The notes under the pieces: generated by a model
Told to the model about the DNA's origin: nothing
The model's database searches: none
What the model saw: only the letters and a program-made list of their open reading frames with translations
Shown here: piece after piece, positions 2,469-25,162 of the stretch
Numbering within the stretch: position 1 is the first letter of the stretch
Layout: every line of letters starts with the position of its first letter
Program-made: the position numbers and the translations under genes
Source of the DNA: a virus
Length of the DNA: 25,872 bases
Reading direction: 5' to 3' (one strand)
Virus record (IMG/VR): IMGVR_UViG_3300020171_000122
Span: 1-25,872 of that record

Positions 2469-2794
2469 GTCGCTGAGACTCCGCACTTTCCACACGAAAG
2501 CGAATCCGTTCCTATGATCTTCCTCGACCAGGCGCCTGTGTTGTCAGCGGTTACGAAAACACTCACCGATGGTACGAGATCCGTACCCGTGAAAAAGCGG
2601 CTTGACCCCACCAGGGTGATCTTGACGGTCGCGTACTTGAGGGTGTCAACACCGATGGTTGCCCGTCCGGCCAGTGTCGTGGTCTGTGCATTCGTAAGTG
2701 CCAGAACGGGATGGTTCGCGGACTGAACGTAAATGATGAAGAACAAAACGGCGATCGTCCCGGCGATCACTTGATGTAATCTTCTGTGTTTCAT
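2345..2794 (-). CDS. Secreted protein, short copy of the fibre C-terminal domain
   Basis: A 149-residue protein with an N-terminal hydrophobic signal sequence (basic start MKHRRLHQ, then a hydrophobic run to about residue 25). Residues 37-149 align almost end to end with the last 113 residues of the upstream 880-residue fibre: both contain TIGVDTLK, TDLVP, GTDSLSC, TIEHPILD and SIPAN/VIPAN blocks in the same order. The family is unknown to me; the repeated beta-strand pattern suggests a beta-sandwich binding or capping domain. Its ATG overlaps the stop of the fibre gene (ATGA at 2794-2791), so the two are translationally coupled, and this is the last gene of the late operon. It could be a trans-acting tip, a decoy or a chaperone for the fibre. 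Confidence 0.75.
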   Translation of the reverse strand: MKHRRLHQVIAGTIAVLFFIIYVQSANHPVLALTNAQTTTLAGRATIGVDTLKYATVKITLVGSSRFFTGTDLVPSVSVFVTADNTGAWSRKIIGTDSLSCGKCGVSATYDITIEHPILDRSGQKIEYRGLSIPANGSTTQLLSIISGM

Positions 2795-6845: not shown

Positions 6846-7361
6846 CTACAACCCCGGAATCAGGCGTTGCGGGTCCTTGATCGCCATCGAAAACGTCAGC
6901 ACCCAACTGAACCGCGTTCCCCGATCCCATGCAAAAGCGTACCCGGCCAGTTCCAGCCAATCGTTGGCCGAGTAGGATAGGCCACCGTCAAACGTCAAGC
7001 CAGAGGCCAGAGTGCCGTTCTTCAATTCGTCGATGTTGTCGAGGAACCCAATCCCCACCAACCACGAACACTGTGGCACGTCACTCCATTGACTGGCAAG
7101 GATCAAGCGGCCTCCATTGCCGCCCACCTGGGTTCCCTCAATCGCCCCGTGCTGGTAACAGGCATAGGTCGCCGCCTTGTCCAAAGACAGCACCTTCAGG
7201 CCAACGTACTGCACCGTGAAAAGCTCATGCAGGTTGGGGCCGGAAACCCCGTAACCGACTCCCGCACCCGCAATGGTTGCCGGACCCCACGATGTACTAT
7301 CCCCGGACGCAAACCCCGTCGCAAATAGGACCATCATTGCCGTGAACAACATCGTTTTCAT
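6846..7361 (-). CDS. Secreted protein with outer-membrane-barrel-like pattern
   Basis: A 171-residue protein with a Sec signal peptide (MKTMLFTAMMVLFATGFAS). The mature sequence alternates hydrophobic and polar residues with many Gly, Tyr and Trp (GVGYGVSG, ELFTVQYVGLKVL, WLVGIGFLDNI, LTFDGGLSYSAND, WLELAGYAFAW, FSWVLTFSMAI), as in small beta-barrels with about eight strands. I do not recognise a family. The ATG overlaps the stop of the hydrolase gene (ATGA at 7361-7358) and AGGAGAG precedes it. If it reaches the outer membrane it could alter receptors or block superinfection. That function is a guess; a soluble beta-sandwich is the alternative. Confidence 0.7.
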   Translation of the reverse strand: MKTMLFTAMMVLFATGFASGDSTSWGPATIAGAGVGYGVSGPNLHELFTVQYVGLKVLSLDKAATYACYQHGAIEGTQVGGNGGRLILASQWSDVPQCSWLVGIGFLDNIDELKNGTLASGLTFDGGLSYSANDWLELAGYAFAWDRGTRFSWVLTFSMAIKDPQRLIPGL

Positions 7362-7984: not shown

Positions 7985-8428
7985 CTACTCCCCCGGCAGA
8001 ATCGGTATCACCCGCTTGAACGCCCACGGCGCAAAAAGGATCGGCTCGGCAGTTTCAACCAACCACTGTTTACCCTCACCTACCAATATAAGCCAGACGA
8101 ATTCCCCAACAACCTGACCACCCATTTCTGGCTGCAAGGGATTCTTTCCATAAACATGCACAGAAACACCGTGTACGAAGAATCCGTCGGGCCGTTGATA
8201 GGTCTGGATCGTACCCATGCGGGAGAAGCGCCCATTCTTGTAGATCGGTCCGCCGCGGACATTTCCGTCCTTGTCGATGGCGAAGATATGCCATCCCGCC
8301 TCGAAGTCAGGTTCCCCCTGTAAGGCAACCGGGATCTCGAACCACACATCCATGAAGTTGCCGGACACAAGCGTGGCATAGGGGATGATCCACGGCTCTT
8401 TGATCGGCTTCAGGATCGGCTCAGGCAT
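7985..8428 (-). CDS. Unknown protein in lysis cassette
   Basis: A 147-residue protein with no recognised domain, signal peptide or membrane span. It is rich in Trp, Phe and Gly with beta-strand patterns (FMDVWFEIPVAL, GWHIFAIDKDGNV, FVHGVSVHVYG, FVWLILVGEG). The start at 8428 overlaps the lysozyme-like gene by 8 bases. It abuts the hydrolase gene with no gap. The tight packing suggests co-translation with the lysis or virion-wall enzymes, but its function cannot be inferred from sequence. Confidence 0.65.
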   Translation of the reverse strand: MPEPILKPIKEPWIIPYATLVSGNFMDVWFEIPVALQGEPDFEAGWHIFAIDKDGNVRGGPIYKNGRFSRMGTIQTYQRPDGFFVHGVSVHVYGKNPLQPEMGGQVVGEFVWLILVGEGKQWLVETAEPILFAPWAFKRVIPILPGE

Positions 8429-8879
8429 TCTTCCCTCCCAACACGTACTTACGGTAGTTCGTTTTGAATTCCTCGACGGTGCCCTTGCCCTTGACGGTGT
8501 TCCAGTGTGCCTTCCAACAGGAGGCCAGTAGGTCGATGTTGTCCGCCTCAGTGGGCAGAGGTTTGCCGATCCGTTCCATATAAACCACAACCGCCACTTG
8601 GATCGACAGCTTCAGGTCCCATTCGCATTCTGCCGCTAAGTGGTCTGCAACAGAAGCAGGACATTCCGGCAGAGAAATGCACCAGTTGAATGTGCCCGGT
8701 TCGATCTGAAGCGCACCAAGTGCCGGACCGTTCAATTGTCTGAGATAGAACCCAAACCGACTCTCCTGTGCCGCCGTGCCCAAGATCAGGTTGACCATGA
8801 ACGGTTCGGACACACCCAACCTGAACTCGCCCACGATCCGGCGCGTAAGATCACGGAACTGCCCGCGATGGTAGCTCAC
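8421..8879 (-). CDS. Lysozyme-like / lytic transglycosylase-type endolysin
   Basis: A 152-residue protein of the lysozyme-like superfamily, expected to cut the glycan strands of peptidoglycan. The catalytic Glu is likely Glu39 in LGTAAQESRFG, followed by the GALQIEP segment typical of SLT-type enzymes. The C-terminus contains LASCWKAHWNTVKGKG and a basic tail. The start is taken as GTG at 8879, which overlaps the holin stop (GTGA) and has GGGG upstream; a longer form from 8939 would overlap the holin by 64 bases. No signal peptide, consistent with release through the neighbouring holin. Confidence 0.75.
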   Translation of the reverse strand: MSYHRGQFRDLTRRIVGEFRLGVSEPFMVNLILGTAAQESRFGFYLRQLNGPALGALQIEPGTFNWCISLPECPASVADHLAAECEWDLKLSIQVAVVVYMERIGKPLPTEADNIDLLASCWKAHWNTVKGKGTVEEFKTNYRKYVLGGKNA

Positions 8880-9112
8880 GATGAAACCCCGACAGATGAC
8901 TTGGTGATGGCCGTCGTCTTGAACGTCCGCAGGAACCATGTAACGACAACGGCAATGCCGTTGATCGCGGCAACGAGCGCCGCCTTTGTCTCCTCGTCAA
9001 GGTTCAGGCCGAAGAAAGTCAACAGGGATGCCACCAAAGATACGGCCTGAACCCAGTTGATCTTCGACGACCATGCGCTCTTGATGGGGGCCGAGATTGT
9101 GACTTCGGGCAT
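8876..9112 (-). CDS. Holin-like small membrane protein
   Basis: A 78-residue protein with two predicted membrane segments (about residues 20-37, SKINWVQAVSLVASLLTFFG region, and 45-62, LVAAINGIAVVVTWFL) joined by a short acidic turn (LDEETKA). This matches a common phage holin-type family. It lies directly before the lysozyme-like gene (GTGA overlap) and 3 bases after a lipoprotein gene, a normal lysis-cassette arrangement. It would make holes in the inner membrane to release the endolysin. Confidence 0.75.
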   Translation of the reverse strand: MPEVTISAPIKSAWSSKINWVQAVSLVASLLTFFGLNLDEETKAALVAAINGIAVVVTWFLRTFKTTAITKSSVGVSS

Positions 9113-9115
9113 TCC

Positions 9116-9451
9116 CTACTCCAATCTGTTGTCGATCTGTGATTGAATCGTAGCGGCCCGTTGCGCTTCTTCGATGGTGTACCACGGTGCACAGATCAAC
9201 CGTCCCCGGCGGTCCTTGAATCCGTAGGTGGGCCGGGCTTCAGTACCGTTCACCCGGATACCGTAGTACGGCTGAATCGTGGGGGCCGGGTCAGGGCTGA
9301 TTGGCGTCGGTGTCGCTTCGGCCATCATGACAACCGTTCCATTCGGGGCGTTCGGGGTCTTCGGTTCGGAGCATCCCACAAAAGCCACTGCCCCCACCAA
9401 AAGGACGCCGAGCAAGTACAAGCCCAGCAGCCCAGCTAACTTCGTGTTCAT
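9116..9451 (-). CDS. Lipoprotein, possible outer-membrane spanin partner
   Basis: A 111-residue protein with an N-terminal hydrophobic stretch ending in a lipobox-like AFVGC (Cys27), followed by a Pro/Thr-rich linker and a C-terminal domain with many charged residues. It should be lipid-anchored. Position between a membrane protein with a coiled coil and the holin suggests an Rz1-like o-spanin, although it is longer than most. The start has GGAGGAGG about 7 bases upstream. Without a recognised family, a generic lipoprotein is the alternative. Confidence 0.65.
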   Translation of the reverse strand: MNTKLAGLLGLYLLGVLLVGAVAFVGCSEPKTPNAPNGTVVMMAEATPTPISPDPAPTIQPYYGIRVNGTEARPTYGFKDRRGRLICAPWYTIEEAQRAATIQSQIDNRLE

Positions 9452-9499
9452 TCTCGACCTCCTCCTGTTCTCTTTCCCGTGGCCACATACGGCCTCCCT

Positions 9500-9814
9500 C
9501 TATCGCCAGTGGGTCGAATCGGCCGGTCCCATACTGGTCATCCAGTATGGTGGTGACGGCCAAAGCTCCCGTGGTATCTCCAACTTCTTGAACACGAGTT
9601 GATTGACGTTGATCTGATACGTCCACGCCGCCCACTGATTGATCCTCTCGACAGATGTGCGGTTATCCTTTTCCTGCAACAAAAAAACGACGGAATCGAG
9701 CTTCTGCTGCACTTCGTGAAAGTCGTTCAGCTGGGCCTTGGTGAAGTAGCCAAGGATACCAACGAGCACAGCGATTACCCAATTTCTCCAGTCTTTGGCC
9801 GCCGCCTTAATCAT
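9500..9814 (-). CDS. Membrane-anchored coiled-coil protein, i-spanin-like
   Basis: A 104-residue protein with one N-terminal membrane span (WVIAVLVGILGYF, about residues 12-24) followed by a helical heptad-like region (QLNDFHEVQQKLDSVVFLLQ). This is the shape of an inner-membrane spanin (Rz), and it precedes the lipoprotein and holin genes. The start at 9814 is chosen because GGGGG is placed about 7 bases before it; ATG at 9832 adds six residues. Spanin assignment is inferred from shape and order only. Confidence 0.6.
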   Translation of the reverse strand: MIKAAAKDWRNWVIAVLVGILGYFTKAQLNDFHEVQQKLDSVVFLLQEKDNRTSVERINQWAAWTYQINVNQLVFKKLEIPRELWPSPPYWMTSMGPADSTHWR

Positions 9815-9891
9815 CACTACCCCCAGTTGCATCTATGTCTACGTAAACGTCAAGGACTTTCTTCGGTTAGCAAGGGATGTGCCACGCGGGA

Positions 9892-12800
9892 TCACTTAAA
9901 GTCTTTCTCCAGCCCCGGCCGCGTGACATCTCGATACCAATCGATCTGGCGATACTGAATTTCCCCAGTCTTGTCCGCTATCGGAAACTTGTCGACGTTG
10001 TCATTCCACTCGTTCACGATCTCTTGGGCTCTTTCCACATTCCCAGCCCAGAAGGTTTTCCGGGCGGCGGTCAGCCGCTTCGATCTGACATCTACATTCT
10101 TGGCTGATTCCCGCTCCGTGGAGCGGAACTGCGCAGAGATGTGATAGCCATACGTCCCGAAGTAGGTTGCCATCTCCTCGGACATCCGGATAGCCAATTC
10201 CTTGCCCGACAACTTCTCCTGTTGCGCCTCAGTTCCCAACCACCAAGTACTCAGATTCTTGGCCCCGCGCCGCATTGCATCGCCCACACGGGCTGCATCG
10301 TTCATGGCCACCGGGGTTAGCAAGAAACCGATGTTGTCTACAATCTCCAATCCCAGTTTCGACGGATCCCCGTCTCTGATCCAACCCACGTCGGAGATCA
10401 TGCCCATCGTACCGATGATCGCATAGCGGTTCGCTACGTGGACCCAGAAGGGTTCGTGCTCATGGAAAACTGGCTGGCCGGACAGGAGTTCCCTGATTTC
10501 GTCCTTTGCCCGGATCATCAGATCACCACCGAGATAACCACCGGCTGCTAAACGCAAGGCGGGGGCCACATTTCCCCGCTTCATCTCACCCCAGATTATC
10601 TCTCGACTGAGAAGTGTCTGCTTGTAGGCGAACCGCTTCAACATCGCCAGCCAACGTGTCTGCGGCATGTTCATGAACTTTGATTCTCGGGTCGCGTCCG
10701 GATGTAATTGTGTCCACCGTGCGTAGTCCCCAGCCGCCTGGACGAACGCTTGGTCATCAATCGGCTTCGTCCAGTCAATGCCGAAGTGCCTGTCCAACTT
10801 CTCCTGGGCCCACTTGATCCGCTGTTTGCCGATCAGTCCAGCTTCATCGAGGGATCGGTTGGCGATTCGGTGGAGATCACGGGCGAAAACGTCCCCCGTC
10901 GACGCGGCCGCATAGTCGAGCGCCTTGTTCGCCATACGGAAGAACTGAAGTGTCGGCAATTTGTCGATGAACCGGGTCGAGGGTTCAAAGGCGAAAAACT
11001 TTTGCGCCGCCACGGTCCCCGTGACCCCATGTCGTCGGAGCCATGCCCTATGAGTCGGCTTCATGCTGTCCAGTGTTCCCTTGATCGAACGGAGGACTCC
11101 AGCATCCGGAACAAAAGAGATGAGCGGTTGAGATAATTGCAGTAAAGGAGCCATCCCACCGCCGATCTTCAGGCCGTAGGTAATGTTGGCGTAGACGCGC
11201 TGGGCCTTGGCAGCCGTCCGACTCAACGGGTGCGTCCTGTCGATCACCCCCATGGCGATGTCAGCCAGATCGCTCGCGTCGTCGTACAGGAAGGGGTACT
11301 TCTCCTGAATCGTTCGAAGAAGTCCGTTCAACCCTTCGCGCTCAGGGCCAAAGACCCGGACCTCTGCCAGCGTCCGCGCGGCTTCGTTGATGTATTGACC
11401 GATGACACGTGCCGGATTCGTCTCCCGGAACTCTTCCGGGAAGAACTTCGCAATCCGGGGCATCTCCACACCCTGAACACGGAAGAGGTTGTTGGCAGCC
11501 TGGTCGGCAAGGAACTGAAGCGCTTCCCCCCTGGTCTTGATTCCAAGGGACTGATTCTTAAGAAGGTGTTCAATGGCACCTTCCGTCGTCTTGCTGACCT
11601 TGTACCGACCGGTGGTCTTCTCAAGTATTGAGGCGACGTAACTGTCTCGTGCGGATTGTGGCTGTCGGCCCTTTCCGATAGCCCGTTCGGTTGCGATCGT
11701 GGCTGATTGCACGAGTCCGCCAGCGTCTTCCCAGAGCGCCTGAGCAATCGCCCGCTTCATCCGCCAAGGCCCGGTCTTGAGAAAGGATTCGCTCAACTCG
11801 AACGACCGGACACTACCATCAGGCATCTTCGTTGTGACACCAGCCTCTTTCATCGTAGCGCCGATCTTGCGGAAGACCTCCTGAACCGGGGATAGTTGCA
11901 TGAACTCTTCCATCTTCATCAGCGCCACACTCTTATGCTTCCGCACCAAGGAAGGCCACCATCCCTCACGTTGAAGCAGCGTTCCGACCTCACGAAAATC
12001 CTCGGCGAAGTTTGCGGCCAGATTGTTGTTCTCGCTCATCATCGTCCGGATTGAGGAAATCAGTTGCCTCGGCTCGGGTAGGTTCCCCATGCGAGTTTCC
12101 ATCGTGTGCAGGATGTTCCGCGCCCATTCGGTCTTACTGTAAAGTGCTTTGGCCCATGTTACCGGGTTGATCTTGCTCAAGTTACCAGTAGTCACTTCAA
12201 CCAGAAGTTCAGCCAGCGGTGAGGCGCTTTCCAATATCGATGGCGGCGCCCCTTCCGGGACCTTTCGGGCGTCCAAAATCGGGGATTCGGTGAATCGCCC
12301 GGAGCGTAGGAACGGCTGCCACTTAGGCGGCGGAACCGGCATGCCAGAAGCCACGGATGCGGGCGTGACCGCGTCATTCAGCACTTCGGCGTGCAGACGG
12401 CCAAGGAAGTCGCCGAAGTTGCCTGGCGGGGCGGCACCGGGAACCCGCGCACTCTCGGCCGGCTCAAGCCATCCACGGGTGGCACCAACAGGCGGGGTCT
12501 CCGCTGAAAACCCCTCTCCAAGCCCCTGACCGCCCTTGATAAGGCGATGCTTCAGGGTCCGCGGCTCACCCAGCCCCGTGTTGACGTTTAGGGGTCTGGT
12601 GGTAGGAAGACCGGGCCGGGAGACGAATCCTTCTCCCATGCCTGCGGGGGCGGCCAGTAGTTTGACCTCGGGAGCCAAGGTCGGAATCTGCGCCTCCATC
12701 TCCGCCGCGCGGACTTCTATCTTGGACCCCAAGCGAACCAACTTAGCAAATTGGGATGCCTTGCCAGCGGCCTTCAGCATACCCGCCGCGCCGCCAGCCG

Positions 12801-13488
12801 CAATCGTGGCGGCGAACACGGGGCCCAAAGGATCCTCGTAGAGCTGCCGCCACGCCTCTTTCTTCTCCTGCTTCTCCTCCCAACTGTCGGCAGGACTGAT
12901 CGCCTTGTAGACAGCCGCAAACTGCTCTCCCATGCCCTCAATCATCAACCCAACCGTCTTCACGGGATCGCGGGCCATGGCCTCCGGCAAAGACAGAAGC
13001 GCCGGACCTATCCGGGCAAAGGACCGGCCGGTATTCTGAATCAGCCCCAAGCCGGTCTCGGCCAAGGATTGATCGGCCGTGTATTCTCCACCCATTGCCT
13101 CGACACCGGGAGACAGGACTTCACCGATCGTGGCTGCAACTGCCATGATGGCGGGTCCTCCAGTCGTGGCGCCTGGTATGGCAGAAAACTCGGCCATCTT
13201 CCGCGCAAAGGTCCGAAGTGGGGATTCCGACTCTCCCGGCTTCGGACCCGGTACGGGCGGTACCTGCTCCCCACCGGTGCCCGCTACCCCAGTCGAACTC
13301 ACCGGTTCCGGTGCTGTCCGCGCCGACGGGTAATCGAGTTTCCCTGCCCCAAAGAACTCCAGAATCCCGGATTCCTTCACCGCCCGGGACAGGGAATCAT
13401 CTGCCGCGACCGGTCGGATCGGGATGTAACTCAAATCGTAGCGATCCCGAATCGGGACATCACTTAGATCGTAGGTTCGGCGAGGCAC
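9892..13488 (-). CDS. Very large internal virion / DNA-ejection type protein
   Basis: A 1198-residue, mostly helical protein without signal peptide. It begins with two copies of YDLSxxPIR (residues 5-13 and 16-24), then a Pro/Gly-rich linker. The C-terminal half (about 790-1130) resembles the large polyvalent-protein domain found in giant internal proteins of podophages, with segments such as TYGLKIGGGMAPLLQLSQP and RFAYKQTLLSREIIWG. A role inside the capsid or in DNA ejection is inferred. The start is GTG at 13488, chosen for GGAGG at 13497-13501 at ideal spacing; ATG at 13509 lacks a good site and would overlap the upstream gene by 20 bases. It follows two other likely internal proteins. 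Confidence 0.7.
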   Translation of the reverse strand: MPRRTYDLSDVPIRDRYDLSYIPIRPVAADDSLSRAVKESGILEFFGAGKLDYPSARTAPEPVSSTGVAGTGGEQVPPVPGPKPGESESPLRTFARKMAEFSAIPGATTGGPAIMAVAATIGEVLSPGVEAMGGEYTADQSLAETGLGLIQNTGRSFARIGPALLSLPEAMARDPVKTVGLMIEGMGEQFAAVYKAISPADSWEEKQEKKEAWRQLYEDPLGPVFAATIAAGGAAGMLKAAGKASQFAKLVRLGSKIEVRAAEMEAQIPTLAPEVKLLAAPAGMGEGFVSRPGLPTTRPLNVNTGLGEPRTLKHRLIKGGQGLGEGFSAETPPVGATRGWLEPAESARVPGAAPPGNFGDFLGRLHAEVLNDAVTPASVASGMPVPPPKWQPFLRSGRFTESPILDARKVPEGAPPSILESASPLAELLVEVTTGNLSKINPVTWAKALYSKTEWARNILHTMETRMGNLPEPRQLISSIRTMMSENNNLAANFAEDFREVGTLLQREGWWPSLVRKHKSVALMKMEEFMQLSPVQEVFRKIGATMKEAGVTTKMPDGSVRSFELSESFLKTGPWRMKRAIAQALWEDAGGLVQSATIATERAIGKGRQPQSARDSYVASILEKTTGRYKVSKTTEGAIEHLLKNQSLGIKTRGEALQFLADQAANNLFRVQGVEMPRIAKFFPEEFRETNPARVIGQYINEAARTLAEVRVFGPEREGLNGLLRTIQEKYPFLYDDASDLADIAMGVIDRTHPLSRTAAKAQRVYANITYGLKIGGGMAPLLQLSQPLISFVPDAGVLRSIKGTLDSMKPTHRAWLRRHGVTGTVAAQKFFAFEPSTRFIDKLPTLQFFRMANKALDYAAASTGDVFARDLHRIANRSLDEAGLIGKQRIKWAQEKLDRHFGIDWTKPIDDQAFVQAAGDYARWTQLHPDATRESKFMNMPQTRWLAMLKRFAYKQTLLSREIIWGEMKRGNVAPALRLAAGGYLGGDLMIRAKDEIRELLSGQPVFHEHEPFWVHVANRYAIIGTMGMISDVGWIRDGDPSKLGLEIVDNIGFLLTPVAMNDAARVGDAMRRGAKNLSTWWLGTEAQQEKLSGKELAIRMSEEMATYFGTYGYHISAQFRSTERESAKNVDVRSKRLTAARKTFWAGNVERAQEIVNEWNDNVDKFPIADKTGEIQYRQIDWYRDVTRPGLEKDFK

Positions 13489-13489
13489 C

Positions 13490-14905
13490 CTACAGTCCTC
13501 CCAGAACATCGTCCAACGTCAGACCCCAGTCCTTGAAGGACATGACCCAAGCTGTCGGGTTTCCCCGAATGATCCGACGCATCTCCTCGGGGTCACTGAT
13601 CGGCGGCTGTTCTTGTGAAAAACGACGCCGAACGGCATCCACCGCCTTTTTGACCCGATCCTCTTTGGGTTCCCCTGTGTCGACCTCGTCTTCTTCATCC
13701 ATATCGCCAGCCACAATCCTCTCGGCTGCGGAAGTCAGCGTCTGGAACTTGCCACTGGCCTGCTTCTTGGCGATCCTGACTTCCTCGACTTGCGCCTCGA
13801 CTTCCTGATAGATTCGAGTCCTGACAACCGGATCACTGATATTGTTTGGACTGTCTTTCGGTCGACCCTCACCGGCCCAAACATCACCCGCCCGTTTGAG
13901 TGCGAGCGCATACTCATTCAGCAAGAATGATCCCTCCGCTGAACTTGTGGCGTTTGGGGGAATGAGGGAGACCACGCCAGTCATCGGTCCAAGTTCACGT
14001 CCGGTCGACATCGGCATGGTTTGATCCGCTTTCGGCATCTGCGAAATATCGAGCCCCTTACCCACGGCTACCGATGGCGTTTGACTTAGGCGTCCCATCG
14101 TTTCCTCTGCCGCTGTCCGTTCAGACGCGGAGATCGGCGTGAGTTTCCCTCCAGTGTCCTCGGGGGGTTGATTCTGGGCAGCAAAAAGAGCCGTTGCCAC
14201 GGAGCCGGGATCAGACCGCAACGCCGCCTTGAAGTAGAGTTTCTGCTTGGGGCTCATGTCCGGATCGCCATCTACCTCCTTCTCCAGTTGGTCGAGCATC
14301 TCATTAAGCTTCCGCGTCTTCTCTTGTGTCTGAGATTCAACGCGACGGGTTGACCGCACCCTCTCCATTTTCTCAACATGGTCCAACTGGTCCTGAATCG
14401 TCTTCGAAAGGCGGTCGGAGAGTTTCGGTGGCAACTTCTGGGCCGCGACACGGGCCTTAGTTAGACCCTGTGCCATCGCCTCCATGTCGGGATTTGCCAT
14501 CGCGTCTTCGATCATCTGTGCAACGGCGTCATACTCTGCCTTATTGCCACCGTACAGGGATCTCCAAGCACGGTCTTCGGCAGCCGGTTCCTTGTCCAGC
14601 AGGGACTCTTGGAAGGTGCGTCCGGCCTGGGCCTCCTCTTTACGACGAAGACCCTCCTGGATGTCCCGGCCCGTCTGAAACTCCTGCACCCTCTTGGTCT
14701 GCTCCGTCTCGAACTGCCGCTGTTTCTCGGTCTCCTTCCCGCGTTGCTTCTGCTGCCAACGAGTCGCCAGAATGTCGGTGAGGTTACGAACCGCCTCCCG
14801 CCAACTCTGCCTACGCCCCTGTCGTCTCAAGAGGGGCGCGAACTCCTTCAACTCCGGCAATACGTCCTTGCCCGAATACGCTAAGTCCCAAAGATCAGTC
14901 GGCAT
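13490..14905 (-). CDS. Coiled-coil internal virion-like protein
   Basis: A 471-residue protein, strongly helical and charged, with long coiled-coil stretches (about 50-120 and 165-210, rich in Glu, Lys, Gln and Arg) and a Pro/Ser-rich middle. No enzymatic motif, signal peptide or membrane segment is seen. The start is supported by GAGGTGAGAG before the ATG. It lies between two other large helical proteins, the usual place for the set of internal or ejection proteins downstream of neck and tail genes. I cannot match it to a named family; a portal- or head-associated structural protein is an alternative. Confidence 0.65.
   Translation of the reverse strand: MPTDLWDLAYSGKDVLPELKEFAPLLRRQGRRQSWREAVRNLTDILATRWQQKQRGKETEKQRQFETEQTKRVQEFQTGRDIQEGLRRKEEAQAGRTFQESLLDKEPAAEDRAWRSLYGGNKAEYDAVAQMIEDAMANPDMEAMAQGLTKARVAAQKLPPKLSDRLSKTIQDQLDHVEKMERVRSTRRVESQTQEKTRKLNEMLDQLEKEVDGDPDMSPKQKLYFKAALRSDPGSVATALFAAQNQPPEDTGGKLTPISASERTAAEETMGRLSQTPSVAVGKGLDISQMPKADQTMPMSTGRELGPMTGVVSLIPPNATSSAEGSFLLNEYALALKRAGDVWAGEGRPKDSPNNISDPVVRTRIYQEVEAQVEEVRIAKKQASGKFQTLTSAAERIVAGDMDEEDEVDTGEPKEDRVKKAVDAVRRRFSQEQPPISDPEEMRRIIRGNPTAWVMSFKDWGLTLDDVLGGL
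13497..13501 (-). promoter_or_regulatory. Ribosome binding site deciding a GTG start
   Basis: GGAGG on the minus strand lies within the end of the upstream gene, 8 bases before GTG at 13488, and one base separates that GTG from the upstream TAG. This supports the GTG rather than the ATG at 13509 as the start of the large internal protein. Confidence 0.6.
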
Positions 14906-14922
14906 CTCTCACCTCGACATAT

Positions 14923-16788
14923 CTATAGTAGGAAGGCTAGCATCGCACCAAGGCCAGCGATGTCCGCAAATATGGACGGGTCATCCGTCGCTTCAGCGGC
15001 GGCCAAAGCAGCTCGGATTTGTTCGATCTGGATATTGTAGCCCAGCATTGCCAGAGCCTTCTGGGTCGCGGTCGCCATCTTCTGCACGTCGATCTGTTCT
15101 CCCGCGATCCACTTCTCCAGTTCGAGTTTAGAGATTCCCAACTTCTCCTGAATGTCCTGATCACGCTGCGTCAACAAAAAGTCATTGGCGATCTTCAATT
15201 GCTGAAGGCGGTTCGTCTCGTCGATGTTGATCGCGGACAGTGTCAGTTCCCCCGTCTCAATGAATTTCTTCAGTTCCTGATCGTCGAGTTTCAGCCCAAA
15301 CTCGCGCTCCGCGTCCAGCTTGAACTGTTCAAACTTGGCTTCGTCCAAGGTCGCCCCACGCAGATCCATTTCCACCTGATGCTTCGCGAGATACTCCTGA
15401 AGGCTCTGTCCGGCCTGGTTCTTGATTAGTTCGATGTTCTGGCCAGACATTGCGACAGCCAAGTTGTTCTTCGCCGTCTGGCGCTCTGTCTGGAGCGCCG
15501 CAGCTTGGAGTCCGAAAGCCAGTCCCTGTTCACGCGCCGATTTCTTAGCCGCACCCAGCATTTCCTGCGTCTTGAACTCCCCCTGAACCATCATGCCCGT
15601 CGCTTCCGAACTGCGACCCATGCCCCGCCCAGAAGCACCAGACAAGGCGGCCTGAATGGCTTCAGACCCTTGGCGCCGAATCGTCGCTTCCTCTTCCCAT
15701 GAGAGCGTGCCGACACTCTGCATGAGATTCGTGAGGAACTGATCCGTGATGTCATTGATCCGATCCTTCGGCAACTTCTTCTGAATGTCGTCCCACAACT
15801 TCGAGAACTCAGGTGCAGCAGAGATCGGCGGTGTCTCCCCATCTGCCGGCGGAGGTTCCGTCACGGGTGCGGTCTGAACAACCGGTCCCGTTCCACCCCC
15901 TCCCGCACCAGCCGCAGCCACGGCTGCATCCGCCTGTCCTTTCGCAAGCGCTTGCTGGGCGGTGTCGATCTGATTCTGATCTCCACTGGCAACCGCCCGG
16001 TCATATTCCGCCTGGAGAGCAGCGATCGCGTCCCGGGCCCTATTCGGATCAGAGGATGTTTGGGGCTGGTTTACAGGAGGCGTAGCGGTCGGCATTTCGG
16101 GCGCCGGTCCTTGATTCGTCTCGTTTCCCGGTCTGATCAACGTCGTGACCATGGGCAAGAACGTGTCCTCAAACTGCTTTTGTTCCTCCAAGAGATCATA
16201 ATACCGATCAAGCCAACTCTCAGACCCCCGGTTGGGGTCATTTGCCAACGCCTCATACGCTGCACGATGAGAGTTCACCCACTGAGTCCATTGCCCAAAC
16301 ATTCCCGGATCGGCTTGCGCCAACCATTCCGGAGCCGCATAGAGTCTCAACTCGTGCTGTGAATAGACAGACTCGGTCTGCCCGCCTCGCCTTTTGGACT
16401 TTTCCTTAAAGTAGTTCGTAACCTGTATCTTTTCCCCAGTGTCCGTATAAAAAACAAACGGCGTATAGGAGACCCCAAAATCGCCACCGGAAGCGTCATG
16501 TAGATTCATCGTGTTCGGACCCACAGGCTCATACGAAATGTCAGTCCAGGGCAGGGCCGGTACGTCTGGCGTCGTCCCCTCCGGCGGTGTCGGAGTCCGA
16601 GCACCGGGGTCCGTTGAACCGCCAGTGCCGCCACCAGCCGTCTGCACATCCGACGTTGTCGATGGAGTGGTCGCCACTCCCGTGTTGGCGGTCCCGACGC
16701 CGGTATTCGTCACCATGCCCGGATCAGGAATCGCCGCCGGAGCATTCAGTATCTCTTCTGCCGCAGTTTTTGCACGACTTTTACCCAT
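14923..16788 (-). CDS. Internal virion / ejection-like protein
   Basis: A 621-residue protein. Residues about 15-80 are a disordered Thr/Pro/Gly/Val-rich leader, followed by a domain with LHDASGGDFGVSYTPFVFY (about 95-113), another disordered Pro/Gln-rich linker, then a long helical region (about 330-600) containing ASGRGMGRSSEATGM, a pattern I associate with podophage internal proteins in which the central helical domain begins with a Gly-rich turn. The C-terminus ends in a hydrophobic FADIAGLGAMLAFLL, which could insert in a membrane during ejection. Start supported by TAGGAGAT. No signal peptide. Neighbouring genes on both sides suggest a virion component; the exact role is inferred. Confidence 0.65.
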   Translation of the reverse strand: MGKSRAKTAAEEILNAPAAIPDPGMVTNTGVGTANTGVATTPSTTSDVQTAGGGTGGSTDPGARTPTPPEGTTPDVPALPWTDISYEPVGPNTMNLHDASGGDFGVSYTPFVFYTDTGEKIQVTNYFKEKSKRRGGQTESVYSQHELRLYAAPEWLAQADPGMFGQWTQWVNSHRAAYEALANDPNRGSESWLDRYYDLLEEQKQFEDTFLPMVTTLIRPGNETNQGPAPEMPTATPPVNQPQTSSDPNRARDAIAALQAEYDRAVASGDQNQIDTAQQALAKGQADAAVAAAGAGGGGTGPVVQTAPVTEPPPADGETPPISAAPEFSKLWDDIQKKLPKDRINDITDQFLTNLMQSVGTLSWEEEATIRRQGSEAIQAALSGASGRGMGRSSEATGMMVQGEFKTQEMLGAAKKSAREQGLAFGLQAAALQTERQTAKNNLAVAMSGQNIELIKNQAGQSLQEYLAKHQVEMDLRGATLDEAKFEQFKLDAEREFGLKLDDQELKKFIETGELTLSAINIDETNRLQQLKIANDFLLTQRDQDIQEKLGISKLELEKWIAGEQIDVQKMATATQKALAMLGYNIQIEQIRAALAAAEATDDPSIFADIAGLGAMLAFLL

Positions 16789-16797
16789 CTCAATCTC

Positions 16798-18192
16798 CTA
16801 ATTCCCTACCGTCGTCCACTCCACTCGGTATGTCCCACTGGCGATATAGCAATGCTGAATGTAGAAAGAACTGTTACTGTCATGTGACCCGTCGGCATAC
16901 AGGGCCACCCAGAGTGTGTCGAAGTTGGCCGGGACACCGCCACCACCAACGCTCGTCCAGCTTACACCGGCCCGGTAACTCGACGCATTCGTGTAGGTCT
17001 TGCCAATGTTCACAATGGTGAAATTTGTAGAGGTACTTAACGTTACTAATCCATGCGCCATCAGTGTGTCCCCGGTCTTGGACCAGAGCTGAGAGGGCGT
17101 CGCGCGCGCAGACCAAGACGTAGTTCCAGAACCGTCCGTTATCAGACATTCGGCCGATGCACCGTCGTTTCCCGGAAGAGTGAGGACCCAATTTCCGGCC
17201 AAGCCAAAAGGTGGCATTACAATGATCCAGTCTCCCGGTACCTCATCGTAAAGAACAAGCCGTGCGGGCTGCCCACCACCAAATGGTTTCAGCGAGAAGG
17301 TTGACGAAATCGCATCAATGTTTTGGCCTCCCGCTGACAGAATGATCTTGTTGTTCTGGGTACTCGTCACGGTTGCCGAGTACAGGGTGTCGGTCTTGAC
17401 CCCACCCGTAAACCACATCCCCGCAGACGTGTCCTTGTAGTCCGACCGAAGATAAGGCCCATCGATCCTTACTGATTGCGCCCCGGTTTTGCCGGTTACC
17501 GTATCGACCGTGATCGCAGCATTGAACCGAAGGCCATTAGACGTGTCCTTGTAATCAGATCTCAGGTAGGTCAAAAGCTGAGATGGGTATACTGGTTTCG
17601 CCCAACCGAGATATCCAGGTTGGGTTTGGTAGGCTAACGCCTGACCAATTGTGTCCGGTCCAGCAGCGGGAAGACTCACAGCCCAACTGGAGGAAATGTC
17701 AGGATAGGCCCTAAAGGTACACCGAGATGTTCCGTTGGCGGTTGCCTCCATGAAGGTAATCGCAGCGGGGTCTCCGCTGGCACATTTGAAAACAACTGAA
17801 TTCAACGCCGAACCCGAAGCAATCGAATCGGTTATAGGTGCACCTATGAAGTATAGCCCAACCGATGTGTCCTTATAGTCCGACCGAAGATAAGGCCCGT
17901 CAATCCTTACCGACCCCGCCCCGGTTTTACCGAGGATTGTGTCAACAACAATGGCTGCATTAAACCGGAGGCCGTTTGACGTGTCTCGATAATCGGATTG
18001 CAGGCAGGTCAGAAGTTCGGCGTAGGTGGCCGCTTCCAAAGAGTCGATCCTGATTCTGGCGCGGTTGTAGATTTCCGTCACCGTTCGGTCCAGAAACGCC
18101 GGATCGTTCTGTGTTACTGGCCAGGGATTGACCTGTGATAGAGCAACGCTGGCCACCAGACAAAAGATGCCTACCCAGATAACCCTATTCAT
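16798..18192 (-). CDS. Secreted repeat protein, putative tail fibre
   Basis: A 464-residue protein with a Sec signal peptide (MNRVIWVGIF, hydrophobic core, likely cut after ALS at about residue 19). Two copies of a 52-residue unit (64-115 and 210-261) each contain SDYxDTSNGLRFNAAI, VRIDGPYLRSDYKDTS and a Gly-Lys-Thr-Gly-Ala turn; SDYKDTS-like motifs occur four times. The C-terminal part (about 290-464) is Gly- and beta-rich (GNWVLTLPGNDG, YRVEWTTVGN), like fibre tip domains. The start at 18192 overlaps the upstream stop by 8 bases. Context between the beta-propeller neck protein and internal proteins suggests a tail fibre or tail appendage. The signal peptide is unexpected for such a part. 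Confidence 0.75.
   Translation of the reverse strand: MNRVIWVGIFCLVASVALSQVNPWPVTQNDPAFLDRTVTEIYNRARIRIDSLEAATYAELLTCLQSDYRDTSNGLRFNAAIVVDTILGKTGAGSVRIDGPYLRSDYKDTSVGLYFIGAPITDSIASGSALNSVVFKCASGDPAAITFMEATANGTSRCTFRAYPDISSSWAVSLPAAGPDTIGQALAYQTQPGYLGWAKPVYPSQLLTYLRSDYKDTSNGLRFNAAITVDTVTGKTGAQSVRIDGPYLRSDYKDTSAGMWFTGGVKTDTLYSATVTSTQNNKIILSAGGQNIDAISSTFSLKPFGGGQPARLVLYDEVPGDWIIVMPPFGLAGNWVLTLPGNDGASAECLITDGSGTTSWSARATPSQLWSKTGDTLMAHGLVTLSTSTNFTIVNIGKTYTNASSYRAGVSWTSVGGGGVPANFDTLWVALYADGSHDSNSSFYIQHCYIASGTYRVEWTTVGN
17410..17565 (-). repeat. 52-residue module, copy 2
   Basis: Encodes residues 210-261 of the same protein, near-identical in protein to copy 1 and separated from it by a unique 94-residue segment. 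Confidence 0.85.
17848..18003 (-). repeat. 52-residue module, copy 1
   Basis: Encodes residues 64-115 of the 464-residue fibre-like protein. It matches copy 2 (17410-17565) in most residues; differences are largely synonymous, so the module was duplicated and kept under protein-level selection. Confidence 0.85.
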
Positions 18193-19843
18193 CCGCAGGC
18201 CCCTTGTACACACCCTCAAGTTCAATCCCATAGATCGACATTCCCAAACTGTCGTCCAGCGCCAACTTCATCATGATCGCCGTCCCGGCCACGGTCGGCG
18301 AAACCCGCTCGTTATCCCAACACCACAATGTCGATGCACAACTCAGCGCCGTTGAACTCACCGACGAAGTCGCATTATCAGCCCACCATGACAGGGCGAT
18401 ACTTGATGTGCCCGCATTAGCGTTGGCCCCCTGGAATAGAACCCGGCTTATCTCTTTGCGCTGCGACATCGGACCAATGTTCAAAAACCCCGAAGTCCAT
18501 AGAGCCGGTATCGTGGATTTGCTATCAGAGTTGCCGCTCGGATAAGAACCAACCCTCTCATAAGCTGCTGAATCCAGGACAAAGAAAAGGCGGTCCGACT
18601 GCGTGGCAAAAGAGTAGAATTGAGATGACGCCGTGTAAGTGACCAAGGGCATTGAACCATCTGTATCATTACCGGAAATACCTGAAATCGGGGCCGCGCC
18701 ATCACCGAAAATATACTTTAGCCACGACCCGGTAAGAGGATCATACACAAATACCCGATGCCCATAAGGATCAATTTCGGCCCGACTTGTTCCATTCCAC
18801 TTCGGCAAAGTGACGTAAAACTTGTTCCGGAAATAAGCCACACTCGTTGATTTTACCTTCCCGTAACCACTGGCCAGAGAATCCCTGAACCAGTAATCGA
18901 GGTCTTGGGAAATCTTTCTAACGCCACTGCCATCGCAGGTGTAAACCCCATCGATGGCCACGAAGACATGATAAGTCCCGGCATTGGCAACGGCATTACG
19001 GGATATCAGCCCCGTCGTGGAAATGGGATCAATGGAGTAGGGGGCGTTCGTTTCGGGGGAAAGCGCAATCCGATAGACGGCGTGCTCCTTATAGGCGATC
19101 AAATACGGGCCAAGCGGTTCAACCCGCATCAGTACATCACCGTCATCCTGATTCACATAAACGAACCCCGAACCGTACTCCGTCCCGATGCTGTCAAAAT
19201 CAATGTCAAATTCCGGGTTCCAGAGAATCTTATTCTGCCACCCCCAATTCGGGTGGGAACCATACATGTAAATCCTGTCTTGGTGAAGTACAAGATAATC
19301 GTAGTCACAGGGCTTTCTGACCACGACTCTCAGATCAACAGGAGAACCAGGTCCAAACAAATAAATCGAATCGTAGACCGGATTACTAAGAATCAGAGTG
19401 TCCTTGAATGTCACAAATGATCCGGGTTCAGTACTATTACAAAGAGGATTGCCCAGCCCCGGAACAATCGTATCCCAAATACCTTGCCCATCATACGTAC
19501 AAAGAAGCTTCGTGCCGCTAATTGCAACTAGATAGTCATAGTCGAATATCAGATTCGACAATGGTTTATAAAAGTAGAGAGCAGCAATCCGAAAATCGGA
19601 GGAAAGCACAGGCGGAATGATATTCTGATATCCCTCTCGTTTCCTTAGGTAGGTCGATGTCCCATTGGAAACAATATCGAAGTTCTTCATGTCCGTGGCT
19701 GTTCCGGGACTCTGGGAGAACAACTCCGATTCCCGGGGCCACGTGAAGTTCTCGATTCGATAGGAGAACCTCTGCCCCGTGTTCGACTGGGCAACAGCCA
19801 AACAGGGGAACAAGAGCATCAGGAAAGGAAGGAATCTTCTCAT
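18185..19843 (-). CDS. Beta-propeller neck/tail protein (P22 gp10-like) with signal peptide
   Basis: A 552-residue protein resembling phage tail-stabilisation or tail-hub beta-propellers that sit below the adaptor. Typical landmarks are MKNFDIVSNGTSTYLRKREG (about 51-70), a central region with LIAYKEHAVYRIALS and GLISRNAVANAGTYHVFVA, then IDGVYTCDGSGVRKIS, and a final ALWTSGFLNIGP segment. Residues 1-19 (MRRFLPFLMLLFPCLAVAQ) form a textbook Sec signal peptide with an AVA cleavage site. That is unexpected for a protein that must bind the portal-adaptor complex. The ATG at 19843 shares one base with the upstream TGA; a GTG one codon earlier is also possible. It is tightly linked to the adaptor-like gene before it. 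Confidence 0.8.
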   Translation of the reverse strand: MRRFLPFLMLLFPCLAVAQSNTGQRFSYRIENFTWPRESELFSQSPGTATDMKNFDIVSNGTSTYLRKREGYQNIIPPVLSSDFRIAALYFYKPLSNLIFDYDYLVAISGTKLLCTYDGQGIWDTIVPGLGNPLCNSTEPGSFVTFKDTLILSNPVYDSIYLFGPGSPVDLRVVVRKPCDYDYLVLHQDRIYMYGSHPNWGWQNKILWNPEFDIDFDSIGTEYGSGFVYVNQDDGDVLMRVEPLGPYLIAYKEHAVYRIALSPETNAPYSIDPISTTGLISRNAVANAGTYHVFVAIDGVYTCDGSGVRKISQDLDYWFRDSLASGYGKVKSTSVAYFRNKFYVTLPKWNGTSRAEIDPYGHRVFVYDPLTGSWLKYIFGDGAAPISGISGNDTDGSMPLVTYTASSQFYSFATQSDRLFFVLDSAAYERVGSYPSGNSDSKSTIPALWTSGFLNIGPMSQRKEISRVLFQGANANAGTSSIALSWWADNATSSVSSTALSCASTLWCWDNERVSPTVAGTAIMMKLALDDSLGMSIYGIELEGVYKGPADE

Positions 19844-20547
19844 CACTGCGCCGCTGTCGTCTGCCCAGGTTGCTGCCGTTTCAACGCCACATGGTCACTG
19901 TACATCTTGTAGAATAACTGAGCCCGATCCGTCTGCATGTCCCGCATGGCGCACCAGGCCGAGGCCAGCAAAACGACACTGACCAAATCCTCCTTGGCCA
20001 CGGAGACCTTGACTGTGTCGTTATCGAGGTCCTTTGGGACCCGAAGCATGTAGACGAAGATTGAATCCCCCCCGGTGGGACTCTTGCCTAAAAGCAGATT
20101 TCGTCCAGCAATGGAGTAATAGGCGAGCATCGTTCCGGTCCCTGGTTTCCCGATAAGTTCCGGTGGAATGTAGCTCAGGGCGTGTTCCTGTCCTCCGGCT
20201 GCGGCCGCATCCTTGACCGTCACTCCCGCAACACGACCGGACATGATCGTATCAATGGGACTGGTGCCGGTGTGGGCAAGCTCATATCGCAGCACATTCG
20301 CCGTGGTGACGATCGTGTCGATCCGCACCGTGCTGCGTTCCCCCAGCGCAATCATGGCCTCCTGTTGAGCATAGTTCAACATCCGGTTGATGGTCGTGTC
20401 GCCAATGTATATCGTCGAGGGTTCCCCCAAGAGGTCCCGCACAAAGTAGCGCATCTGACCGCGGTTCGACAGGAGGGTCTGGGACCAAGCCCACGAACCC
20501 GCCCACAAGAGTACAGCGGCAACAACCATTGAAACGATCTTCCTCAT
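19843..20547 (-). CDS. Adaptor-like neck protein with signal peptide
   Basis: A 234-residue protein. After residue 23 it follows the pattern of phage head-tail adaptor proteins: an N-terminal helical part (MRYFVRDLLG, then INRMLNYAQQEAMIALG), a beta-rich middle with YIPPELIGKPGTGTMLAYYSI and LLLGKSPTGGDSIFVYML, and a C-terminal helix bundle (LVSVVLLASAWCAMRDMQ). Yet it begins with a strong Sec signal peptide (MRKIVSMVVAAVLLWAGSWAWS, cut before QTLL). The ATG at 20547 is preferred over a GTG just before it because GGAG is 6 bases upstream. Function is inferred from the fold pattern and position after a second adaptor-like gene; the signal peptide makes its site of assembly a puzzle. Confidence 0.75.
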   Translation of the reverse strand: MRKIVSMVVAAVLLWAGSWAWSQTLLSNRGQMRYFVRDLLGEPSTIYIGDTTINRMLNYAQQEAMIALGERSTVRIDTIVTTANVLRYELAHTGTSPIDTIMSGRVAGVTVKDAAAAGGQEHALSYIPPELIGKPGTGTMLAYYSIAGRNLLLGKSPTGGDSIFVYMLRVPKDLDNDTVKVSVAKEDLVSVVLLASAWCAMRDMQTDRAQLFYKMYSDHVALKRQQPGQTTAAQ

Positions 20548-20574
20548 CACCGACTCCTATTCACTGTACGGGTT

Positions 20575-21246
20575 CTAGATCGAACTACGGGATCGCCCAC
20601 TGTCGGAGTAGTCGTCCCATCCCGGGTCGACGCCAAAGCGCATCGTCAGTTCGTTCGATGTCCGATCCGAGAAGATCGCCGTCTGGAGAGCCGCTTGGGC
20701 GGACTGCATGAAGGCCAGGCGGGCCTCTGCCGTCCCCTGCATAAGAGCCGCACAGCGCTCCAAAACCGCCTGCTCCATGTAAGAAGGAATCTTCCCCAGG
20801 TATGCCGTATCAGAGGTTCCGTCGTAGATGATACTGACATTGTACGCCTGATCCGGTATGCGGAACCAGTAGATACGCCACTTCTCCCCCGCCGATTCCG
20901 TCTTGACGATTTTGCACGTGGTTGGCTGCGAATTCTGGAAATTGGCGGGATAGGGGAAGCTTCGGTCAAAGGACTCCTCTTCTTGAATGTCCACCAGACA
21001 GGGCAAACTGGCGGTCTTGATCACGACACCACGGATCGACTCAAAGTCGGCCGGCAGTTCCGTGTAGGCTTGGGCGGCAATTGTCGTGGTGTCCTTCTGC
21101 CGCCGTTTCACCTTCCAGCGATAGGCACCCCAGACGGCCGCAAATCCAATCTCAATCGCGGTATCGGCCAACTTCCCGAGTTTGTCGTCTTTCAGCCCGG
21201 AAGTGCTGATCGACATCAGGTAGTTCTTCAGATTCGCCACATCCAT
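20575..21246 (-). CDS. Head-tail adaptor-like protein
   Basis: A 223-residue protein placed directly after the capsid gene. It has the layout of tail-tube-A/gp4-type adaptors: N-terminal helices (LKNYLMSISTSGLKDDKLG), the beta segment AYTELPADFESIRGVVIK (about 60-77), WRIYWFRIPDQAYNVSIIYD (about 125-144), and a C-terminal helical part (IPSYMEQAVLERCAALMQ). No signal peptide. It would join the portal to the tail. The ribosome binding site is weak; translation may depend on the hairpin-bearing gap after the capsid gene. The second adaptor-like gene follows 27 bases downstream. Confidence 0.75.
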   Translation of the reverse strand: MDVANLKNYLMSISTSGLKDDKLGKLADTAIEIGFAAVWGAYRWKVKRRQKDTTTIAAQAYTELPADFESIRGVVIKTASLPCLVDIQEEESFDRSFPYPANFQNSQPTTCKIVKTESAGEKWRIYWFRIPDQAYNVSIIYDGTSDTAYLGKIPSYMEQAVLERCAALMQGTAEARLAFMQSAQAALQTAIFSDRTSNELTMRFGVDPGWDDYSDSGRSRSSI

Positions 21247-21294: not shown

Positions 21295-22563
21295 CTACAC
21301 GTACGTCATGATCCCCACGCAGTGATTGGCATTCAATGACTTGACCTTCCAGTACTTCTTCCAAGCCATCGTACCCCAGGCGTTCAGGGGGTTGGAGGTG
21401 TTGTTGTCATCAGCCGTCGGCATCTTGATGAACAACTCGGGTTCGGCGCGACCGGACAGATCGACCGATCCGAAAGCGTCCATGCCAAGCGCAAACGACA
21501 TCCGCATCCGCCCCGTTGTCTCTGAGAACGAGTTCACCGTCTCGGCAACGGTCGCATACCGCGCCCGACAGGTCGTTTCGAAGATCTCGAAGTCCGCCCA
21601 CTCGCCAATCTTGGAATTTTGGTATCCGCCATTGGCGAAGTTTGGTGAGTTGACGGCGGTGTCCCGGAACTTGCTGTCATTCAAAAGCTGCGTATGCACT
21701 TCCGGTGTCAGGATAAGTGCATACTTGCCACTCGGGAACCGTTGCGCACCATTCTTCCGCAGAACCTCAGCCGCCTTGTTCAACAGGGCCGTGCTGATGA
21801 TGTGCGTCGCCAGTAGGCAGGAGCTTCCGGCGAACGGCGCCGCAATCGTCAGTTTCGTGGGATAGTCGTCGGTCGGTGATTGGGCCGCTTCCGGAAGAGC
21901 CGTCGCCAAGGTGATATACCGACCCACCGATGAATAGGCTGAGATACGGCAACAGTGCCCGTAGGCAGCCCCCTTGGTGATGCAGACCCATCCACCCTTG
22001 AAGGTCTGAGATGCGTTCTTCCCCTTCAAGGTTAGGCTGGTATTCACCAGGGTGAGAACTGTTGTGGACGTTGGCGAAGACACCGCGATGTCTTCGTTGA
22101 GGTAGGCCGTATTCTGCGTGCCCGCGCTGTTGACCGCACCACCGACCAACGGGAAGATTCCCGTCTCAGCCAAGGTGTAGAGAATGTTCCGATCCAGCGA
22201 TTCGGCCGCATTCTGCGACACAAGATCGACCATCTTGGTCAGATACCGATCCCGCGATGTCTTGTAGTGCAGCATCGAGAACATGACCGGCTTCTTGATG
22301 TCCCAGATTTCGACCGCCGCCGTAATCGCCATGCCTTCCACCGCCTGATAAGTGTAGGACGTGATCGATTCGGAACTTGCAGTCGTGACCTTGGAGAGCG
22401 GATGATACCGGAACCAGTCGACCGTCTTCCCCTCACCATCGGGTAGGGGGACCGATTGGCCGAACCGGTTTGCGACCATGACTTCCTTAAAGTGACTAAG
22501 GAAGCGATCCATGTAGTAGGTTTTCTGGGCTTCGGTCAGGTTCCCAGTTGCAGTAATAGCCAT
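21295..22563 (-). CDS. Major capsid protein, N4 gp56-like
   Basis: A 422-residue major capsid protein resembling the N4 gp56 family. Landmarks: an early LPDGEGKTVDWFRYHPLSKV (about 40-59), the KKPVMFSMLHYKTSRDRYL segment, AAESLDRNILYTLAE (about 119-133), the LILTPEVHTQLLNDSKFRD region, and RMSFALGMDAFGSVDLSG near the C-terminus. It forms the icosahedral shell with the HK97-type fold. Start supported by GAGGTGAGGTC before the ATG. The scaffold-like gene precedes it by 58 bases, and the adaptor follows after a hairpin. No signal peptide, as expected for cytoplasmic assembly. Confidence 0.88.
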   Translation of the reverse strand: MAITATGNLTEAQKTYYMDRFLSHFKEVMVANRFGQSVPLPDGEGKTVDWFRYHPLSKVTTASSESITSYTYQAVEGMAITAAVEIWDIKKPVMFSMLHYKTSRDRYLTKMVDLVSQNAAESLDRNILYTLAETGIFPLVGGAVNSAGTQNTAYLNEDIAVSSPTSTTVLTLVNTSLTLKGKNASQTFKGGWVCITKGAAYGHCCRISAYSSVGRYITLATALPEAAQSPTDDYPTKLTIAAPFAGSSCLLATHIISTALLNKAAEVLRKNGAQRFPSGKYALILTPEVHTQLLNDSKFRDTAVNSPNFANGGYQNSKIGEWADFEIFETTCRARYATVAETVNSFSETTGRMRMSFALGMDAFGSVDLSGRAEPELFIKMPTADDNNTSNPLNAWGTMAWKKYWKVKSLNANHCVGIMTYV

Positions 22564-22621: not shown

Positions 22622-23299
22622 TCAGGCGAAGAGATGCGGGTACTTCGCTTCGTACTTCTGTTTCACCGCATCCTTTTCGATCTGTGTCTTGGCAACCGCC
22701 AGATCACGCTTGAAGCGCCCCAGAGCATCCTCGTCCGACGTTGATGCCCGACTGGAGACCGGGGCGCTGCCCGTGGTCAACCCCACGTGTGCCGCACCAT
22801 CCTTGCGGGGCTTATTCCCCGCGGCTTTTTCGGTCTCCGTCGCCGATCTCAGCGAACGGGCAATTTCTCGGTACACGTCAAGCCGCTTCAGCGGATCCTT
22901 GTACGTGCGGGAGATCTCCGGATACTTTCTCTGGGCCTCTTCGAGATAGGAATTCAGCTCCCTGTCTTCATCCGTGATGAATGCACGGGAAAGCATCTCC
23001 TGTTGCGTTAGACGCAACTCTCGAATCTCGCGCTTGAGCGCCTTGACGTGCGGATCGGTGATGTCGCCGAACTCTTCACGCTCCTGTTTTTCATTCAGTT
23101 GCGTTTCCAGTTCGTCGATCTTGGCCTGCATTTTGTCCGCCCGATCATTGTCGCGGCGCTCAAAGAATACGCGGCTGCGGTGCTTTTGAGCCAACTCGGA
23201 CAGCTCCTCGGCGTTTTTGACGCCGAACTGGTCGAGAATGGCCTTTGGTACTTCTTCTCCGGCGTCCATTTCGATCCTGGGATCATCCGGGCTGGTCAA
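22622..23299 (-). CDS. Scaffolding protein-like
   Basis: A 225-residue, highly charged, mostly helical protein with a long coiled coil (about 45-115, rich in Glu, Lys, Arg and Gln) and a disordered Ser/Thr/Pro-rich linker, placed directly before the capsid gene. This is the typical form and position of a phage scaffold. The start is taken as TTG at 23299, which overlaps the upstream TGA (TTGA) and has GGGAG 6 bases before it; an ATG at 23269 with AGGA upstream is a credible shorter start. The identity rests on composition and position. Confidence 0.75.
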   Translation of the reverse strand: MTSPDDPRIEMDAGEEVPKAILDQFGVKNAEELSELAQKHRSRVFFERRDNDRADKMQAKIDELETQLNEKQEREEFGDITDPHVKALKREIRELRLTQQEMLSRAFITDEDRELNSYLEEAQRKYPEISRTYKDPLKRLDVYREIARSLRSATETEKAAGNKPRKDGAAHVGLTTGSAPVSSRASTSDEDALGRFKRDLAVAKTQIEKDAVKQKYEAKYPHLFA

Positions 23300-25126: not shown

Positions 25127-25162
25127 CCCATCTTCCTCAGTGTACCGTAGACGTAGGCGTCC

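Follow-up and report, generated by a model that had tools for sequence, protein, structure and literature searches.

Signal peptides on an adaptor-like protein, the tail nozzle and a fibre point to possible two-compartment tail assembly in a podovirus of a Bacteroidota-type host

Assembly of tailed phages is taken to be entirely cytoplasmic. In the nozzle family of P22 gp10, Sf6, SU10 and T7 gp12 (PHROG 3287), the nozzle gene follows those of the capsid and adaptors, and the same profile, fold and gene order recur in the DNA analysed here, the 25,872-base IMG/VR record IMGVR_UViG_3300020171_000122 (hereafter the window), whose late genes lie on the minus strand. Unlike the 193 homologues checked, however, the window nozzle starts with a predicted cleavable signal peptide and carries surplus O-glycosylation motifs, and the genes on both sides of it, encoding a second adaptor-like protein (AD2) and a repeat fibre, also open with predicted signal peptides. 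The portal vertex of crAss001, whose host belongs to the Bacteroidota, resembles the window in its adaptor and muzzle nozzle but, unlike the window, has no signal peptide among the structural proteins checked. In phages of Porphyromonas gingivalis (Nixviridae), secreted phage proteins obey the host Q-rule (glutamine, Gln, at +1) as in the window; these proteins are of unknown function and were read as secreted and host-modifying, unlike the tail parts considered here (PMC10367356). Bartlau et al. mention that lyase-domain proteins in Ingeline and Nekkels carry signal peptides, and leave assembly undiscussed (PMC8776804). The literature searched gave no account of exported neck parts of tailed phages, nor of what signal peptides mean for their assembly.

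Signal peptides were scored with our own rule-based predictor, which looks for a basic start, an uncharged hydrophobic core and small residues at -3 and -1. The n-, h- and c-regions followed by Gln at +1 were found in all three proteins (3/3): AD2 (MMRKIVSMVVAAVLLWAGSWAWS/QTLLSN, slash marking the predicted cleavage), the nozzle (MMRRFLPFLMLLFPCLAVA/QSNTGQ, with a 19-residue predicted signal peptide) and the fibre (MNRVIWVGIFCLVASVALS/QVNPWP). As control, only seven of the 122 non-gene open reading frames (ORFs) of the window scored at all, the best at 3.49. At the window Gln frequency of 3.7%, Gln at +1 in 3/3 has a chance of about 5e-5. Furthermore, the start codon of the nozzle gene shares bases with the AD2 stop (TGATG), and that of the fibre gene with the nozzle stop (ATGAATAG), which makes the internal ATG at 18192, and not 18231, the most likely true start of the fibre; the AD2 start has a GGAG 5-8 nt upstream. 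The signal peptides named in the original prediction thus hold, on strong scores, small residue/Gln sites and overlaps that fix the nozzle and fibre starts. The predictor also agrees that the major capsid protein (MCP), the scaffold, the first adaptor (AD1) and three internal proteins carry no signal peptide. Their restriction to a neck and tail set is likewise upheld; signal peptides on four further genes, mostly fibre-like, and a lipoprotein signal had been missed. The two groups divide by topology: proteins that sit within the capsid or at the portal (capsid, scaffold, internal proteins, AD1) are signal-less, while the outer parts (AD2, nozzle, fibres) are signal-bearing.

Gln at +1 is the hallmark of the Bacteroidetes Q-rule, under which 332 of 334 species exceed 48% Q, with a mean of 71% (PMC5837995; see also PMC10653852). 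Bacteroidota also O-glycosylate proteins at D-[S/T]-hydrophobic, a motif in which glutamate is not tolerated in B. fragilis and which is reported glycosylated solely on non-cytoplasmic proteins (PMC12871550). Counting D-[S/T]-[A/I/L/V/M/T], with expected values from shuffling, we found 20 motifs in AD2, nozzle and fibre together versus 5.6 expected (P 1.9e-6), and 49 versus 14.7 when all seven signal-peptide proteins are pooled with the lipoprotein, whereas the other window proteins were not enriched (12 versus 12.8; single proteins in Table 1). The 22 motifs of the large fibre occur in 21 distinct contexts. The preceding residue is specific (D 49 versus 14.5 expected, E 0 versus 4.1); after the S/T of the motif there is an excess of I, L, V and S, a pattern matching the measured Bacteroidota glycosites (PMC12871550). 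Among 1,856 control genes of other phages, six fell below P 0.007 versus 13 expected. The four most enriched include two genes for membrane/anchored or exported proteins, from crAss001 and B40-8, the only two Bacteroides phages in the control set; moreover, none of 193 other nozzles, all of them signal-less, reaches the motif density of the window nozzle. Thus the motif excess on signal-peptide proteins argues for true translocation in a Bacteroidota host rather than a retained anchor. Translocation of AD2, nozzle and fibre is strongly implied, and the simplest reading would place the motif-rich chains in the periplasm of a Bacteroidota-type host.

Uncleaved signals could instead act as membrane anchors, with tails put together on the inner membrane from its cytoplasmic side, or could have a role in DNA ejection. 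All assembly would then stay cytoplasmic, and fast-folding propellers can resist translocation; on the other hand, no tool result spoke directly for anchors, the small-x-small/Gln sites are perfect in 3/3, and the motif excess runs along the mature chains, as expected of periplasmic chains only. We consider such anchors quite improbable. Among the routes listed in the original prediction, construction of the tails at or across the inner membrane fits best, while retained anchors are disfavoured by the Q-rule sites and the motif.

The nozzle matched PHROG 3287 (E 4.8e-15), and a hidden Markov model built from relatives also matched it (E 3e-14), linking it to a large nozzle family. Its AlphaFold model is of moderate quality (predicted local distance difference test, pLDDT, 52; core 240-380 mostly 60-90), and the top Foldseek matches were phage tail complexes throughout, the best being tail proteins of SU10, a cyanophage, P22 (gp10), Sf6, crAss001 and T7. 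Two sets of nozzles were compared: i) loci fetched by capsid similarity, many of them from monoderm Firmicutes, in which none of 122 propeller homologues with a complete N-terminus had a signal peptide, nor any of 111 upstream neighbours, and one of 73 downstream neighbours had a weak one; ii) a further 71 nozzle ORFs complete at the N-terminus, found with a DNA pattern for the nozzle motif (hosts unknown), in which signal peptides were absent from all 71 and from the 50 upstream ORFs. The leaders are thus as unusual as had been claimed (0/193 other nozzles). These nozzles start at the propeller domain, where the mature window nozzle also starts, so the nozzle signal peptide is an addition in the window lineage.

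Homologues starting downstream of the hydrophobic stretch, which the original prediction had counted as a sign against itself, are hence exactly what was found, yet they do not imply a wrong start: the stop/start overlaps together with the Q-rule point to an added export signal, not a misplaced start. That the leaders are untranslated, through chance or wrong start codons, is in keeping with where the homologues begin, but it is hardly credible in view of three independent genes with stop/start overlaps and Gln at +1 each time, of more signal-peptide genes elsewhere in the window and of a motif excess restricted to signal-peptide proteins. The signal-less homologues would likewise agree with two forms of each protein, one exported and one, from an internal start, kept in the cytoplasm for the virion. 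Dual starts are known in phages; however, the next Met of the nozzle lies ~35 residues into the mature chain, past the start of the homologues, and that of AD2 would cost ~9 mature residues and has no clear ribosome site, which makes two forms very improbable.

Among these readings, we lean towards two-compartment tail assembly in a podovirus of a Bacteroidota-type host, which would proceed as follows: i) capsid, scaffold, internal proteins and AD1 would remain in the cytoplasm, where AD1 would close the DNA-filled heads and form the cytoplasmic side of the junction; ii) AD2, nozzle and fibres would cross the inner membrane via cleavable Sec signal peptides; iii) the cut by signal peptidase I would expose Gln, probably cyclised to pyroglutamate; iv) the exported proteins would probably be O-glycosylated in the periplasm; v) the exported outer tail would join the AD1-closed heads at or after the breach of the inner membrane by lysis proteins, the tail being completed outside the cytoplasm. 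Of these steps, we infer cleavage, glycan addition, the AD1/AD2 boundary, periplasmic joining and virion incorporation.

The window phage is not the only one with tail parts marked for export. In a survey of cultured Bacteroidota phages, Q-rule signal peptides turned up on proteins of the distal tail in Cellulophaga phages, namely in phi18:3 (gp085-087), phi10:1 (gp091-095) and phi46:3 (gp079-083), and also on phi13:2 gp084, gp086 and gp087 and Ingeline_1 gp31-34; the window thus shares this trait with Pachyviridae (phi18:3, phi46:3, phi13:2), Assiduviridae (phi10:1) and Duneviridae (Ingeline). The predicted processed ends of phi18:3 gp085 and gp087 are pyroGlu-QVLVPENTGYGYDNLTTVQLNALTK and pyroGlu-QTVEGTVGSDGSLIPYNVSASADVQDGTITEAK, and the N-terminal modules of the signal-peptide tail proteins are common to podo- and siphophages at 58-89% identity (coordinates in our loci: L201:32891-38583; L205:11848-18879; L206:2344-10946; L207:14090-20498; L208:3865-9844). 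The head, connector and tail-tube proteins checked in phi18:3 and phi10:1 had no signal peptide. No convincing signal peptide was seen on structural proteins of crAss001, B40-8, phi14:2 and phi4:1 (part), or among late structural genes of P12024L, P12002L, FCL-2 and T7; signal peptides are not general among Bacteroidota phages. The statement that no described phage does this accordingly fails for virion tail proteins, given phi18:3, phi10:1 and others, and stands for neck parts: among everything searched, a nozzle and an adaptor-like protein with export signals are unique to the window phage. That the two-compartment route operates here and that a milder form, with exported fibres or spikes only, occurs in several Bacteroidota phage families is a broader proposal that we hold tentatively.

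Tandem mass spectrometry (MS/MS) underlies the annotation of several signal-peptide tail proteins of Cellulophaga phages as structural or virion proteins, so exported tail parts can reach virions. This bears on the reading of AD2, nozzle and fibre as exported duplicates (with a job of their own, for example masking receptors, excluding superinfection or forming a surface structure), with the true neck genes in a missing part of the genome. The export signals are strong and the contig is probably incomplete, both as duplicates would have it; but the late genes stand in canonical order with one copy each, decoys would hardly be expected to take the form of an adaptor and a nozzle, and the Cellulophaga counterparts are virion-annotated from MS/MS, so that we regard duplicates as unlikely.

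Several points weigh against the two-compartment route. Its evidence (signals, Q-rule sites, motifs, nozzle identity, absence from homologues) is drawn entirely from sequence, and the Bacteroidota-type host is likewise inferred. AD2 gave no match in profile searches, its model is poor and uninformative (pLDDT 36), and it aligns weakly (21-22% identity, beginning just past the predicted cleavage site) with the adaptors encoded ahead of the nozzle in three relatives (L005, L169 and L170); since the alignment is weak and the model poor, the adaptor label comes mainly from position, and AD2 is only tentatively an adaptor. The window record, probably a fragment, showed neither portal nor terminase, and a second set of neck genes is therefore possible. 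The Cellulophaga precedent covers fibres, spikes and other distal tail proteins only, whereas the neck-region proteins of phi18:3 have no signal. Moreover, the Cellulophaga signal-peptide tail proteins are motif-depleted (15 versus 38.5 expected), opposite in sign to the enrichment in the window; depletion and enrichment each differ from chance, which the non-signal proteins do not clearly do (18 versus 23.1). Finally, the window stands alone, with no closer relative bearing neck signal peptides: neither IMG/VR nor INPHARED yielded a close relative in single-protein searches with MCP, nozzle, AD2, AD1 and the largest internal protein, MCP alignments gave distant relatives only (mostly Firmicutes prophages), and a subclade DNA pattern found nothing beyond three relatives already known.

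If true, the two-compartment route would add a compartment and two host modifications (pyroglutamate and O-glycans) to tail assembly, make it dependent on host Sec and signal peptidase, and account for the largely unremarked signal peptides on virion proteins of cultured Cellulophaga phages, which make the question testable in a laboratory phage. The Q-rule and the O-glycosylation motif together would offer a simple sequence marker for the compartment of Bacteroidota phage proteins.

The late genes of the window run in the order probable scaffold, MCP, AD1, AD2, nozzle, fibre, followed by three large proteins of internal type, the lysis genes and more fibre-like genes (Table 1), which contains the canonical T7/P22 order (capsid, adaptor, nozzle, internal proteins) with a single nozzle.

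Table 1. Positions of the window features discussed in the text (slash, predicted cleavage; motifs, O-glycosylation motifs observed versus expected)
Feature	Position	Strand	Signal peptide	Motifs	Other evidence
Probable scaffold	22622..23299	minus	none		precedes MCP; charged, helix-like sequence; no family match
MCP	21295..22563	minus	none		PHROG 1357, E 9.1e-25
AD1, SU10-type adaptor	20575..21246	minus	none		Pfam PF24175 (SU10_adaptor), E 2.3e-6, above cut-off
AD2, second adaptor-like protein	19843..20550	minus	20482-20550, score 4.8; mature from Gln at 20481	5 vs 0.9	
Tail nozzle, P22 gp10-like beta-propeller	18185..19846	minus	19790-19846, score 5.0; mature Gln from 19789		
Repeat fibre	16798..18192	minus	18136-18192, score 4.6-4.9; mature Gln from 18135	8 vs 2.5	no convincing family match
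Three large proteins in internal/ejection position	14923-16788, 13490-14905, 9892-13509 (span 9892..16788)	minus	none	3 vs about 5.9 (together)	
Probable lysis cassette	8421..9832	minus			sequence features
Membrane coiled-coil protein	9500-9832	minus	no convincing cleavable signal peptide	2 vs 0.18	lysis region
Lipoprotein	9116-9451	minus	lipoprotein signal		lysis region
Holin-like	8876-9112	minus			lysis region
Lysozyme-like	8421-8939	minus			PHROG 3108 (function unknown), E 4.4e-17
Protein of unknown function	6846..7361	minus	Sec, internal ATG at 7361, score 4.1		
Protein of unknown function	5941..6627	minus	Sec, AMA/AQ, internal ATG at 6627, score 5.9	4 vs 1.0	
Large repeat fibre	2791..5433	minus	Sec, SANA/G, score 5.4	22 vs 6.7	
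Small protein	2345..2794	minus	own signal peptide		resembles C-terminal domain of 2791-5433 (translations, by eye)

Motif-enriched, membrane-anchored lysis-region proteins occur in crAss001, B40-8 and P12002L (L194:25066-25695; L195:15801-16406; L211:28524-29165), and periplasmic domains of phage proteins may be glycosylated by the host; the motif count of the window coiled-coil protein likewise fits a periplasmic domain. Export as type IX secretion system cargo was rejected: no C-terminal sorting domain was found (no NCBIfam or Pfam match). Among the fibre-like genes, the small protein resembles a stand-alone version of the C-terminal domain found in the large fibre next to it, and a RuvC-like Holliday junction resolvase (PHROG 159, E 1.2e-6) lies amid the late fibre genes at 5444-6124. 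Just upstream of the scaffold, 23610-25870 encodes a methyltransferase, by a match to Pfam Methyltransf_23 that stays below cut-off, along with two genes that look glycosyltransferase-like by eye; loci L192 and L193 have a glycosyltransferase-like gene near the capsid gene as well. Near the left end of the window is a GSGFGDG low-complexity repeat tract (446-680), and not far from it a C5 cytosine methylase on the plus strand (1432-2289; Pfam E 1.5e-47).

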